DNA from: Sulfolobus sp. S-194
GTDB taxonomy: Archaea; Thermoproteota; Thermoprotei_A; Sulfolobales; Sulfolobaceae
Direction: 5' to 3'
Assembly: GCF_012222305.1 (NCBI RefSeq)
Contig: NZ_CP035730.1
Span: 2,135,501-2,199,500, forward strand
Length of the DNA stretch: 64,000 nt
Part shown: one piece after another, positions 38,572-61,499 of the stretch
How positions within the stretch are numbered: position 1 is the first letter of the stretch
Layout of the letters: every line of letters starts with the position of its first letter
Position numbers and translations under genes: made by a program
The notes under the pieces: model-generated
What the model was told of the DNA's origin: nothing
What the model saw: only the letters and a program-made list of their open reading frames with translations
Database searches by the model: none

Positions 38572-38980
38572 AAAGTAATAATCCATTCGTATCATACAAT
38601 CTTTTTTCTAAATCCTCTTGCTTTATGAGAATAAATAGAAATGCATTAAAGCTGGAAAAAGAATAGAGAGACATATGATCGCTATATATAGATCTAATCT
38701 ATTGAAACAAAACCTAAGTATTCCTCAAATGAGAGAAAAACTCTCAAGAGAACTTATTAATACTATACCCTCTAGTTACTCCTTAATCGCTTAGTATTTT
38801 ACGTAAAATCTCTATGATGAAACAGTTTTTAAATAATAAGTTTTTATAGTATAAAATTTTCATCTAATAGTAATAAACTCCTCTCCTTGAGATGAAATAT
38901 AGTATAAATATCTACGATATCTTTTGAGATGATTACTAATTGTCACGATTTTCCTATAAATGCTGATCGGTTAACGCTTT
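38572..38980. other. Intergenic region with one weak short frame
   Basis: An ATG frame at 38675-38794 (+) would give 39 residues (MIAIYRSNLLKQNLSIPQMR...). No family, no clear promoter; probably not a gene or a remnant. The rest is AT-rich. Confidence 0.3.
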
Positions 38981-39994: not shown

Positions 39995-40212
39995 AAATAG
40001 AAACTTGAGGAGAAAAATTAATAGTTAATGAGCAACGAAAGCCATATTAACCTTGATACATGGCTTCAATGAACAGTAAAAGATTATTCATCTATTTGAA
40101 AATATCTTACTTTATTTGAGAAAATTGGGAAAAGAAAATGTGTTAAGGTAAAAATATAATATCAAGAGAATTCCAATAATCAAGTGAAGTAAAATATAGC
40201 TCAAATTATTTA

Positions 40213-40470
40213 TCATATATTACACTTCCTTAGGGATTTTGGCTTCGTTGAATTTTCATGAAATTGTATCCAATTCTCAGCCGTTGGGCTTCACCAGAGT
40301 CACAGGGCAATGCTCTACTCGTCTCCATTTGCCCCTTTACGGTAGACCCTAACCCACATCTAGGGTATTTCACGGGTATGGGGAAACCCACACATCTTAT
40401 GTAATGCCTCTAACCAGGTTAGGTTTGTAACCGTAGAAGGTCACAATAAGCATAAGTTTATTCATAATTT
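40213..40470 (-). pseudogene. GC-rich remnant, possibly the 3' end of an IS605-type tnpB
   Basis: This stretch is much richer in GC than its surroundings. Read on the minus strand it holds one frame ending at 40213 interrupted by several TAG/TGA stops (MCGFPHTREIP, RVYRKGANGDE, SPTAENWIQFHENSTKP). The composition and ending resemble decayed C-termini of archaeal IS605 OrfB/TnpB, whose 3' end also encodes the omega-type guide RNA. A structured non-coding RNA is the alternative. Confidence 0.4.
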
Positions 40471-40699
40471 ATGAACTCAAACGTGGTCAGTCTTGGTTTT
40501 TACCTTACCCTTTTTAGTATTAGTAAGTATAGTTACTCATATTAATTTTAAAATAAAAATATCATTATTTTCTTACTATATTATATTCACTTATTTCCTT
40601 TCTTGATACTAATGTAGATAAGTTTGGGCTTAATTCTTTTTCACGTTAATAGAATTCTTTTTATATTCGTTTATAACAAAAAATTATTGATTAAGGATG

Positions 40700-40882
40700 A
40701 TCTCTCATACCGATGTGGGCCATGCCTAAAAGGGTGAGGGAGATAGCGGAGATGTGAGCCCCGTGCCGTTGGGCTCGAAGGAGTCCCATGACCCACCTAC
40801 CTTAAGTAGGTGGTTGAGGGCTAAGTCCCTACACTCGATCATGAATGAACATAAAATGATTGAAATGAAAGTGTAGGGACAA
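40700..40882 (+). ncRNA. GC-rich structured segment, candidate omega-RNA-like or other ncRNA
   Basis: A GC-rich island in AT-rich DNA. It contains hairpin CCACCTAC/GTAGGTGG (5-base loop) and, at its end, an 11-bp inverted repeat GTCCCTACACT ... AGTGTAGGGAC with a 35-base loop. A + strand frame, interrupted by one stop, reads KGEGDSGDVSPVPLGSKESH..., like a TnpB C-terminus. The likely reading is the 3' end of an IS605-type element with its RNA. It is not a tRNA, and no RNase P or SRP RNA signatures were found. Confidence 0.4.
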
Positions 40883-41044
40883 ACGGAATATAGGTGAATT
40901 GAAATAGTTATAATTTTTTATTAGTCTAAAATTTTAACAAACTACACACATAAATTTTACAATATTGAATTTTACATCAAGAAAATGCTTTGAAAAATCT
41001 TGTCAAAGTACAAATATTTAAGAAATATTTTATTCAAAATAACC

Positions 41045-45167: not shown

Positions 45168-45310
45168 GCGTTCAGTAATAAATCTTTCGGTCAAATTTTG
45201 AGCATAGTATCAGCTACTATTGCCACATAGACCCTCTAGACCCATGTGGCGATTAAGGGTGAGGAATCTTCAGTCACTTAGATTCATAAGGCTTATTATA
45301 TCAAACACTC
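45168..45310 (-). mobile_element. Right end of IS110-like element (candidate bridge-RNA region)
   Basis: Non-coding sequence directly downstream of the transposase remnant and homologous to 12186-12350. Hairpin GCCACAT (45222-45228) pairs with ATGTGGC (45244-45250) around a 15-base loop. Compared with the other copy, one stem pair changes from G-C to A-T with pairing kept, while the loop sequence is unrelated. IS110-family elements encode their guiding bridge RNA in a non-coding end, so this is a candidate for such RNA. Confidence 0.5.
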
Positions 45311-45690
45311 CAAATAACCCTTACTTACCACAGCTTTTCCACTCCTCTCAACACCACAATAAGCAACAAAAGACTCTGGTTTAGGAAAACGCTTAACAAC
45401 ACTAATAATACCAGCTGCAAGCCTACCAACACCTGGAATTGTTAGTAAAACGTGATCATATGGGACTTGCTTCCAAAACATTTTCCTAACTCTTTTTCAA
45501 CAGTGGCTGCACATCCTTTTGGATCATTGGCCTTTATATCATGAATAGCATTGTTTAATAAAGTGTTCACATAACCACTTGTTATGGTACTTAATTCCAT
45601 TATATTTACTTTTATAGTGAAATTTATTAACTTTGTTCTAAAGATATTATCTATTATTCTTTTCTGAGCTAAGTCGTTTTTAAAATCCAA
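45296..45690 (-). pseudogene. IS110-family transposase remnant (C-terminal half, frameshifted)
   Basis: Two overlapping minus-strand frames join into one protein fragment. The first ends ...NAIHDIKANDPKGCAATVEK; the second continues FWKQVPYDHVLLTIPGVGRLAAGI...RFPKPESFVAYCGVERSG. The IPGVG helix-hairpin-helix and AYCGV segments are hallmarks of the IS110/IS116/IS902 C-terminal (transposase_20) domain. The RuvC-like N-terminal half and the serine-containing tail are missing, so it is not active. Confidence 0.75.
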
Positions 45691-45858: not shown

Positions 45859-46215
45859 TTAATTAATTTTATTATCTTTGTAAATCTTATCAAGAGTATT
45901 TAGTATTTTCTCAGCTAACTCAAATGCTTTAGTTAACTCATCTTCTGTTATACAATCATCAGAATAGTCAGCCTTTTTCCTTAATTCGTAAAGCCTCATA
46001 AACATTCTGCTTTCGTCTGGATAGCCTAAATGTCTTAGGACATTAGCAAGTTTATCATCTCTTCTCGGAAAATCACGTTTTAGTAATTTTAATAAGTCCT
46101 CTAGTCTTTTTCTGACGGCAAAGTAAAGGGATGATACAGATTTATTATAATTATGGATCTCAGCGTCACTTCTAGCTTCCTTTAATAATATCTCGTATTT
46201 TTTCATGCTCCTCAC
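45859..46215 (-). CDS. HEPN domain protein, likely RNase toxin
   Basis: 118 residues, all helical. The HEPN pattern is visible: ARSDAEIHNYNKSVSSLYFAV with helix 2 residues, and the terminal LYELRKKADYSDDCITEDE block, where the R-x-x-A-D-Y variant is common in HEPN proteins paired with minimal nucleotidyltransferases. It overlaps the upstream nucleotidyltransferase-like gene by 44 bases. The pair is laid out as a HEPN-MNT toxin-antitoxin module. Confidence 0.7.
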   Translation of the reverse strand: MRSMKKYEILLKEARSDAEIHNYNKSVSSLYFAVRKRLEDLLKLLKRDFPRRDDKLANVLRHLGYPDESRMFMRLYELRKKADYSDDCITEDELTKAFELAEKILNTLDKIYKDNKIN

Positions 46216-46726
46216 GCGTCATTATATAGTAACTAACTGCACAATCATATTTATCATTTACTTCTATTGCTGCTTCAGCAACCTTTTCCCTTACAAAATC
46301 ATCAACTTTATCAACAACAACAAGAACATTACTATCGTAAACGTTAGCAAATACTACATCTAGCACAAGACCCTTTATTCTATTCTTAAAGTCAATGAAC
46401 GCTTCTTCACAGTCATTTTTTCCATCACTTACTCTAGAAAATAGATTAATAGTATAACTATCATTTTCCGAAGTGATATAATAGCTTATCGTACAATCAT
46501 ATTTATCATTTACTTCTATTGCTGCTTCAGCAACCTTTTCCCTTACAAAATCATCAACTTTATCAACAACAACAAGAACATTACTGTCATATACATACGA
46601 ATCCTCATCCAATCCTATAACCATTTTCAGCCTATCTCCTAAGCACTTTCTTAGGAGTTGAAAAAAATCCAAAATAGCCGAACTCCACTCATTATTAACT
46701 AGCTTATACACAATTAATAATTCCAC
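46172..46726 (-). CDS. Degenerate, internally duplicated nucleotidyltransferase (MNT-like antitoxin)
   Basis: 184 residues. It contains two copies of a half-domain beginning VYDSNVLVVVDKVDDFVREK and ending in a SYYI strand, resembling the second half of minimal nucleotidyltransferases. The canonical GSxARG loop is absent, and the usual DSDID metal-binding pair reads DSNVL in both copies, so AMPylation activity is probably lost. An exact 93-bp DNA repeat (46241-46333 and 46493-46585), spaced 252 bp or 84 codons, underlies the duplication and keeps the frame. Confidence 0.65.
   Translation of the reverse strand: MELLIVYKLVNNEWSSAILDFFQLLRKCLGDRLKMVIGLDEDSYVYDSNVLVVVDKVDDFVREKVAEAAIEVNDKYDCTISYYITSENDSYTINLFSRVSDGKNDCEEAFIDFKNRIKGLVLDVVFANVYDSNVLVVVDKVDDFVREKVAEAAIEVNDKYDCAVSYYIMTREEHEKIRDIIKGS
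46241..46333. repeat. 93-bp direct repeat, unit A
   Basis: Identical base for base to 46493-46585. The next base differs (A against G), marking the limit of identity. It encodes the repeated nucleotidyltransferase half-domain. Confidence 0.95.
46493..46585. repeat. 93-bp direct repeat, unit B
   Basis: Second unit of the exact duplication, 252 bp from the first. Sequences outside the repeats differ, which points to recombination or gene conversion between two related genes rather than a simple tandem copy. Confidence 0.95.
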
Positions 46727-52801: not shown

Positions 52802-54289
52802 ATGAGTCTATTCGTATTTGATAGAACCCTCGCAGCATATACTATGGCTGTTCACGTACTCTTCACATATTGGGCTATATCATTACCATTCTTCATAGTA
52901 GCTGCTGAGTACTTAGGATATAGAAAGAATGACCCGTACTATCTAGCCTTAGCAAAAAGGTTTGCAATAGTAATGGCAGTACTATTTGCAGTCGGTTCTG
53001 CGGGTGGAGCTGCTATAGCTGTCGAGTTCATTACAGTATGGTATAAGTGGATGTACTTGGTTAACGAATTAGAGATAATGCCTTTTGTACTTGAGGTTTT
53101 AGCGTTCTTTACTGAAGTAATATTCTTAGCCCTATATTTATATGGCTGGGATAGAATGAGCAGAACAACACATATGATACTAGGATTAATGATAGGTGCT
53201 GGATCTACAGCATCAGCAATTCTTATAATTATAGTTAACTCGTGGATGAATACCCCCTCTGGATTTAACGTTATGAACTACGTAAATAATGGAGTTCTAA
53301 CTGATATTAATCCGGTTTCGGGATTATGGCCTCCAGCTGCGACTGCAGAAGTACCAATGGGAGTTGCAGGAGCTCTCTTCGTAGGATTCGGTAGCTTAAC
53401 CGGATACTTCAGTCTAAGAAAACTTTTTAGTAAGAACCTAACTCATGATGACATAGAATATTACAATAGAGGATTAAAACTTTCAATATACGGAGCAGCA
53501 ATTGATGCAATATTCCTAGCTTGGGCTGGCGATAATGCTGGAAAGACTCTATATTCTATACAACCATTAAAGCTAGCAACACTTGAAGGGTTAATTCACA
53601 CTACTAAATACGCACCAATGGACCTTGGTCCAATCAAAATACCAGGGTTATTAAGCTTACTAGTCTCATGGCCTCCTAACCCAAGCACGTTAGTACTTGG
53701 TTATTCAAGCTTCGTAGAGAATGTTAGAGATCCGATCTGGTGGTTATCTCATGCAGCATATGATGTTCATGCCGCACTAGGCATATTAGGTGCAATAGTT
53801 TTCTGGATATTGGCACTATTTACTTACTACGGACATAAGTTTAATGTGAAATTCTTAGGGCTGAACAATACTCTAGAAAACAAAATCCCGTTAGCTGCAG
53901 CATTCATCATGGGCTGGCTACAGCTAGTAGCCTGGGAGTCTGGATGGGTTGCAGCTGAAACAGGTAGACAGCCTTTCGTAATATGGGGACCCATGGTACA
54001 AACTGCTAATGGGTTATATACAATAGAGGCTGTTATGTGGACAAACGAGGCTTATAACAATAATCCAATGGTATATCCAATTGGTATAGCAATAATGGCT
54101 GCTCTAGCTATTGCTGTAATTGGAACAGTATATATGTTAAAGAAACTCTTCACTGGTAGAGAGATATCTAAAGATATAGCTTCAATTACTCCAACATTTA
54201 GTAGCAGCGGTTTTACAGCTCAAGCTCCCTCAGTTAAGGCTATGAGTACTCATGAAAAAGAACATGTAGGAGGTGGTATGAATGAATGA
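52802..54289 (+). CDS. cydA: Cytochrome bd-type oxidase subunit I (CydA-like)
   Basis: 495 residues, about nine or ten membrane segments. Conserved CydA features: the heme b595 His in MAVHVLF near residue 18, the paired Glu in LEVLAFFTEVIF (E99/E107 of E. coli), FGWDRM-like YGWDRMSRTTHM, and the quinol-side ETGRQPF (GRQPW) motif. The position of the b558 His (H186) reads AATAEV here, and the Met ligand (M393) aligns with His in YDVHAALG, so heme ligation may differ from bacterial enzymes. It overlaps subunit II by eight bases. Confidence 0.82.
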   Translation: MSLFVFDRTLAAYTMAVHVLFTYWAISLPFFIVAAEYLGYRKNDPYYLALAKRFAIVMAVLFAVGSAGGAAIAVEFITVWYKWMYLVNELEIMPFVLEVLAFFTEVIFLALYLYGWDRMSRTTHMILGLMIGAGSTASAILIIIVNSWMNTPSGFNVMNYVNNGVLTDINPVSGLWPPAATAEVPMGVAGALFVGFGSLTGYFSLRKLFSKNLTHDDIEYYNRGLKLSIYGAAIDAIFLAWAGDNAGKTLYSIQPLKLATLEGLIHTTKYAPMDLGPIKIPGLLSLLVSWPPNPSTLVLGYSSFVENVRDPIWWLSHAAYDVHAALGILGAIVFWILALFTYYGHKFNVKFLGLNNTLENKIPLAAAFIMGWLQLVAWESGWVAAETGRQPFVIWGPMVQTANGLYTIEAVMWTNEAYNNNPMVYPIGIAIMAALAIAVIGTVYMLKKLFTGREISKDIASITPTFSSSGFTAQAPSVKAMSTHEKEHVGGGMNE

Positions 54290-61261: not shown

Positions 61262-61499
61262 TTTAATATAAATTAGGTAAAGAGTTATATAAGCAAAACC
61301 ATTAGAGAGGACTCTGGAAAGATAGAGATACCGTGGTCAATCTTTCTGAGAGTTAAAAAAGCGGAAGTTTGCCTTATAGTTAATAAGTACTTTATAAGAT
61401 ATGGTAGATATTTATACTATATTTAATCGCAAAGAGAGCAAGTCTATCCGTACTAGATGAAAACTTTATATTATAAAACCGTGTATTTATTTAAAACAG

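Follow-up and report, generated by a model that had tools for sequence, protein, structure and literature searches.

MITE-SMN2 in Sulfolobaceae: a nonautonomous IS607 element with a putative omegaRNA region

Two GC-rich islands in the window

The window (the whole stretch of Sulfolobus sp. S-194 DNA that was analysed, 64,000 nucleotides) has a GC content of 0.318, and its 150-bp windows have a mean of 0.318 and a standard deviation of 0.056. Its top two separate 150-bp GC peaks are the right island, which holds the maximum (0.547 at 40691 and 40701), and the left island (0.50 at 40271); a third peak lies outside both (0.487 at 53881). Between the islands the DNA is AT-rich (20% GC at 40550-40699). 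A preliminary description of the locus had pointed out the islands, the gap and a likeness of each island to a TnpB C-terminus, and all three observations hold. The right island, on the plus strand, matches residues 367-412 of a 412-aa TnpB at 84% identity, and the left island, on the minus strand, has 79-80% DNA identity to the 3' end of a tnpB that encodes 428-430 aa. Comparison with the tnpB 3' ends of related insertion sequences, as that description had proposed, matches both islands to tnpB 3' ends of the IS607 family. The islands contain no tRNA, and Rfam gave no match at or above the gathering cut-off, only matches far below it. The features of the locus are as follows.

40231-40398, minus strand: left island, a decayed RE, the 3' end of tnpB from a second IS607 lineage (79.5% identical to L036, 78.8% to L027)
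40626-40886, plus strand: right island, complete SMN2-type nonautonomous IS607 element, 261 bp (full-length alignment to MITE-SMN2 of SMV1)
40626-40674, plus strand: left end (LE), common with autonomous IS607 elements (83.7-93.9% identity over 49-50 nt to six of them)
40651-40666, plus strand: BRE/TATA-like promoter of archaeal type, AGAATT followed by TTTTATAT (79-97% conservation per column across 103 solo copies)
40700-40744, plus strand: stem S1 with inner hairpin (from the fold and alignment to the parents)
40757-40822, plus strand: core of the putative omegaRNA with helices S2, S2b and S3, among them the 8-bp stem (pair-keeping to pair-breaking transitions 101:38)
40825-40880, plus strand: terminal stem S4, the 11-bp stem (from the fold and an exact stem match)
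40881-40886, plus strand: conserved right-end tip AAACGG (terminal in 63 of 71 newly added copies)
40887-40906, plus strand: site-specific flank, putative guide (60 distinct 20-nt flanks in 61 clean-end copies)

The right element, whose limits had first been drawn slightly off, has both ends and encodes neither a transposase nor a TnpB. Along its whole length of 261 bp it is 88.9% identical to a copy in the virus SMV1, which carries the annotation MITE-SMN2, and 85.9% identical to a copy inside plrA of the plasmid pMGB1. Its identity as SMN2 and its IS607 parentage are near certain. The island is a copy of a known element; the new findings are the IS607 descent and the putative omegaRNA region.

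Relative to its parent, the element has lost ~1.7 kb and kept both a promoter-like box and an RNA scaffold, with ~190 bp retained on the RE side versus ~50 bp of LE. The TATA-like word is present in 88 of 103 solo copies, at a median of 41 nt from its start to stem S1 (90 copies measured). In the parent, the BRE/TATA-like box would drive tnpA; in the solo element, where transcription would start just before S1, it probably serves as the omegaRNA promoter. Stem S1 is the counterpart of a hairpin that the parent has within the zinc-finger codons of tnpB, and its architecture is kept with different stem letters in three copies (L202, L205 and L206). In the main family, some tens of nucleotides between S1 and the core helices of RE are gone relative to the parents. 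The 8-bp and 11-bp stems noted beforehand are both exact: 40793-40800 pairs with 40806-40813 (CCACCTAC/GTAGGTGG), and 40825-40835 pairs with 40870-40880 (GTCCCTACACT/AGTGTAGGGAC). The putative omegaRNA is structured, overlaps the tnpB 3' region, ends at RE and is followed by a flank that varies from site to site; the 20 nt beyond RE may act as the guide.

Other features of the window include a second dispersed repeat of ~175 bp with imperfect 28-nt inverted ends (38791-38968), a MITE-like family with 31 matches in its own genome, one of them at ~61396-61496 of the window. An IS110-type transposase fragment (Transposase_20) lies at 45296-45481 on the minus strand. At 45859-46726, also on the minus strand, a HEPN-domain gene adjoins an ORF in which ~35 residues are duplicated (VYDSNVLVVVDKVDDFVREKVAEAAIEVNDKYDC twice); the two may form a HEPN/MNT pair, with this ORF as the nucleotidyltransferase.

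IS607 parents, ends and insertion target

The ends of the element at 40626-40886 are those of 31 other spanning copies and of six autonomous IS607 elements, with differing flanks; their consensus is GGGCTGAATCCTTTTT on the left and GTGTAGGGACAAACGG on the right. The two termini of the window element form no terminal inverted repeat. The autonomous elements, of ~1.9 kb, carry tnpA and tnpB (broken in one). Used as a DNA query, the right island matches 12 places in its own genome, counting itself, and 11 of 21 genomes contain matches. Two of the copies, G002_1880241 and G003_1893566, have their flanks in common, indicating an old common insertion.

The TnpA of both parents is an IS607 serine recombinase (NF033518, E 3e-73 for the right-island parent and 2e-68 for the left-island parent), which rules out an IS605 origin of either island, since the parental TnpA is not of the Y1 (HUH) type. 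The earlier proposal of solo omegaRNA regions from lost IS605-type elements is therefore kept as to the solo omegaRNA region and changed as to the family. Likewise, "lost" applies to the left island only, whereas the right island is complete as a nonautonomous transposon, with its two ends present and its many copies lying in different surroundings. In the cognate TnpB, the TNB zinc-finger domain (PF07282) is recognised, and a guided-TnpB model falls just short of its cut-off. Among the cognate TnpBs scanned, EDLP and WHRD occur in 26 of 26 and the DxNE motif, by the pattern used, in 20 of 26; we take these to be RuvC-type motifs. No sequence in the PDB matched the cognate TnpB at E 0.01.

SMN2 was described in PMC3839810 as a relative of SMN1 that was likely moved by an IS200 transposase. 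Mobilisation by an IS200/IS605 TnpA, with an incidental similarity to IS607, would fit the IS200/IS605 element that pMGB1 and SMV1 carry according to that account (for pMGB1 it is also seen here). It is nevertheless very improbable, as LE and RE of SMN2 are those of IS607 elements and the plrA insertion lies at GG. Compared with the uninterrupted plrA of pB12E5 and pBEU9E1, this insertion sits in a G run with GG on both sides. A nested copy in G002, lying in another IS607 end, also has GG on both sides (at L035 ~1884-2250 in that genome, an SMN2 copy interrupts RE of an IS607 element of the left-island type). GG is found at both ends of SMN2 copies. Upstream of LE, no 5-nt motif was found among 61 copies, GG alone being common. 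The empty site of the window copy is hidden by a rearrangement in G002, where the two neighbour genes lie at different places and homology ends at 40008 and 40961.

The left island is a decayed remnant of a second IS607 lineage (L027, L036), whose tnpB encodes 428-430 aa, and no LE is recognisable upstream of it. Solo forms with LE, hairpin and RE exist for this family in G010, G008, G002 and G000, and 2 of 8 that were folded have z < -2. In the SMN2 lineage, the solo elements of G034 result from a separate deletion that joined the tnpA start to S1 and left the same arrangement of LE, hairpin and RE; in some S1 and S3 stems both strands carry new letters.

RNA fold and selection in solo copies

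Hairpins had been claimed for both islands, and the claim is borne out for the right one. The RNA of 40690-40886 folds with an MFE of -76.9 (z -5.58, 0 of 200 shuffles as stable), whereas the left island has z -0.38 (69 of 200 shuffles as stable; z -1.90 for a longer stretch). The analysis was extended to 103 solo copies: 71 sequences from 80 fetched loci, the window copy and 31 spanning copies of 6 genomes. The 80 loci were hand-picked among the covariance matches listed, mostly away from tnpB; loci whose match was truncated or fell into two pieces were omitted, as were two duplicates. The 103 solo RNAs have a median z of -4.5, with 89 below -2 (20 shuffles each).

Changes in Watson-Crick pairs were counted on a tree by parsimony, the tested structure being the MFE structure of the window copy, itself one of the 103. 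C>T beside G keeps a G-U pair in the plus-strand RNA, while G>A beside C breaks the pair; without RNA selection the two are expected to be equal. C>T (pair kept) occurs 145 times versus 81 for G>A (pair broken), and with A>G and T>C added, pair-keeping and pair-breaking transitions stand at 219:132. Of the double changes, 20 kept the pair and 5 broke it. The LE columns have an A>G excess of 1.49, which makes the C>T half the cleaner test. When the structure is slid along the alignment, 11 of 12 controls give no significant excess; the +9 slide deviates (97:59). The C>T to G>A ratio is 0.60 in unpaired RNA columns and 1.00 in LE, with no C>T excess.

Taken singly, helices S2, S2b and S3 reach significance (101:38 together, 32:5 on internal branches), and the outer helices do not (S1 32:30, S4 64:51). 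The bias is weaker on terminal branches (156:102) than on internal ones (64:30), which fits selection on copies that go on spreading. Strand-specific RNA-level selection on the core helices of solo SMN2 is well supported. In the right-end tree, solo and autonomous copies are partly intermixed (14 changes versus 23.4 for shuffled labels), so the selection seen on deep branches was possibly inherited from autonomous phases; the tree leaves the number of origins unsettled. Copies from genomes that have an intact tnpB (78) fold with a median z of -4.59, versus -4.14 for those from genomes that lack one (11 copies; p 0.051), a comparison confounded by age. An RNAalifold consensus on a MAFFT alignment of 32 copies gave a different structure, with LE paired to RE, and was not used.

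MITEs are usually viewed as bare transposase substrates. SMN2 might likewise be only a DNA substrate of TnpA, its RE kept for the recombinase and its fold inherited without function. The copies are indeed mobile and their fold is like that of the parents, and covariation in a small set of 32 copies is modest (score reached in 8 of 500 shuffles, pairs with a double change in 43 of 500). Against a passive element speaks the strand-specific surplus of pair-keeping changes among solo copies, which 11 of the 12 slid controls do not show, as does the absence of the C>T over G>A excess from unpaired and LE columns. Stems whose two strands both carry new letters (L206, L201 and L175) and the far longer stretch of DNA retained on the RE side than in LE also argue against it, and we consider it possible but rather unlikely.

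That the retained C-terminal frame of tnpB encodes a short peptide, in line with the small putative ORFs noted for SMN2 in PMC3839810, is a reading we reject as highly unlikely: the frame is open in 64 of 103 solo copies, but closed in the other 39 versus 1 of 25 autonomous copies, and the changes favour base pairing.

RNA-level selection would also be expected if the SMN2 RNA bound TnpB without productive cutting and lowered the nuclease activity, or had been recruited by host or virus to guide the regulation of genes. The old insertion common to two genomes and the copies in a virus and a plasmid could be read in this way. The high copy number and the 60 distinct flanks among 61 copies look selfish, and the guide is not conserved, making a regulatory or decoy RNA improbable.

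Distribution and possible use of TnpB in trans

A covariance model was built on the RNA part of SMN2, and the search suggested in the preliminary description was run on 31 Sulfolobaceae genomes. It gives at least 243 matches in 20 of the 31, autonomous copies included, with at least 85 in G027. Cognate TnpB, called at E 1e-60 or better, is found in 13 of the 31, in some of them in broken form only. RNA matches outnumber tnpB matches in G003 (16 versus 2), G011 (21 versus 2), G002 (11 versus 1) and G027 (at least 85 versus 11). Seven of the 20 match-bearing genomes lack cognate TnpB (G000, which is that of the window, G034, G010, G032, G026, G035 and G007) and together have 49 RNA matches. No TnpB at least 60% identical to the cognate one is present in the virus or the plasmid collection searched. 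An exact 32-base core was found in 30 stretches, 29 of which belong to Metallosphaera yellowstonensis MK1, and in G027 (L219 / L156, C10 ~98441-98986) two SMN2-type copies adjoin on opposite strands.

As its genome has no cognate tnpB, the window copy is probably silent and ageing. Three of the 4 other full-span copies folded from this genome have z > -1; thus 3 of 5 look eroded, and the window copy is among the remaining two, which fold well.

The IS607 parentage, common ends, GG target, mobility and strand-specific selection on the RNA fold are supported by the tests above. On this basis we propose, with a probability of about 0.6, that SMN2 is a guide-RNA-only parasite of IS607, moved by TnpA and using TnpB to cut empty sites. 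The element would be an IS607 derivative cut down to LE, with its archaeal promoter, and an omegaRNA gene ending exactly at RE. The TnpA serine recombinase of a full IS607 would act in trans to move it into GG dinucleotides. From the new site, its promoter would make an omegaRNA whose 3' extension is the DNA adjoining the insertion, and TnpB supplied in trans may load this RNA. The loaded TnpB would then cut copies of the site without the element, which would be copied back and so spread without a protein of its own.

The loading and cutting steps are suggested by the role of TnpB in its own elements, together with the retained promoter-like box and scaffold. That role is described in PMC8612924, PMC10097598, PMC11061315 and PMC11870625, and a Sulfolobus TnpB is reported to cut DNA (PMC10640517). 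The bacterial IS607 TnpBs characterised in PMC11061315 require AGGAG or GAGGG, and the missing longer motif in the LE flank of SMN2 counts against cutting by TnpB in trans with SMN2 RNA.

A broader reading, on which we place even odds, is that SMN2 is a protein-free, guide-RNA-only gene drive, in which a cassette of promoter and omegaRNA is selected and uses TnpA and TnpB of IS607 relatives, reaching dozens of copies in one genome and being carried between hosts by virus and plasmid. It includes, at the same joint odds, at least two origins of the layout of LE, hairpin and RE within one IS607 lineage and a further origin in a second lineage.

Several known systems resemble parts of this proposal. 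MITE-SMN2 of SMV1 and pMGB1 is the same element as the right island; the published account names IS200 as its likely mobiliser, and here we find IS607 descent and a putative omegaRNA region. SMN1 of S. islandicus is likewise a Sulfolobus MITE-type element, a relative of SMN2 according to PMC3839810 and likened here by description, but it depends on ISC1733 (PMC3718332). IS607 TnpB with reRNA of the RAGATH-18 type (PMC11061315) is alike in combining an IS607 TnpB with a right-end RNA whose guide, putative in SMN2, lies in the flank, and in a G-rich target motif; the SMN2 lineage differs in being archaeal and without Rfam match, and in that its RNA gene travels without TnpA and TnpB. For the IS200/605 TnpB gene drive described in plasmids (PMC11870625), the proposed benefit, cutting copies without the element, is the same, but the nuclease is encoded in cis, unlike in SMN2. 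We found no description of TnpB with a MITE or with a nonautonomous or standalone guide RNA in the openly licensed literature.

Standalone omegaRNAs of IscB were reportedly described by Altae-Tran in 2021. They are alike in that the guide RNA gene lies apart from the nuclease gene, and unlike in having IscB instead of TnpB; we know of no description of them as a minimal IS607 transposon.

IS607 is now the probable mobiliser of a named Sulfolobus element for which an IS200 transposase had been proposed, and SMN2 offers a small testable system in thermophiles. If the SMN2 omegaRNA is under selection, a nonautonomous element would parasitise an RNA-guided nuclease as well as a transposase, and guide RNAs could spread apart from their nuclease, resembling the split between guide array and effector in CRISPR.
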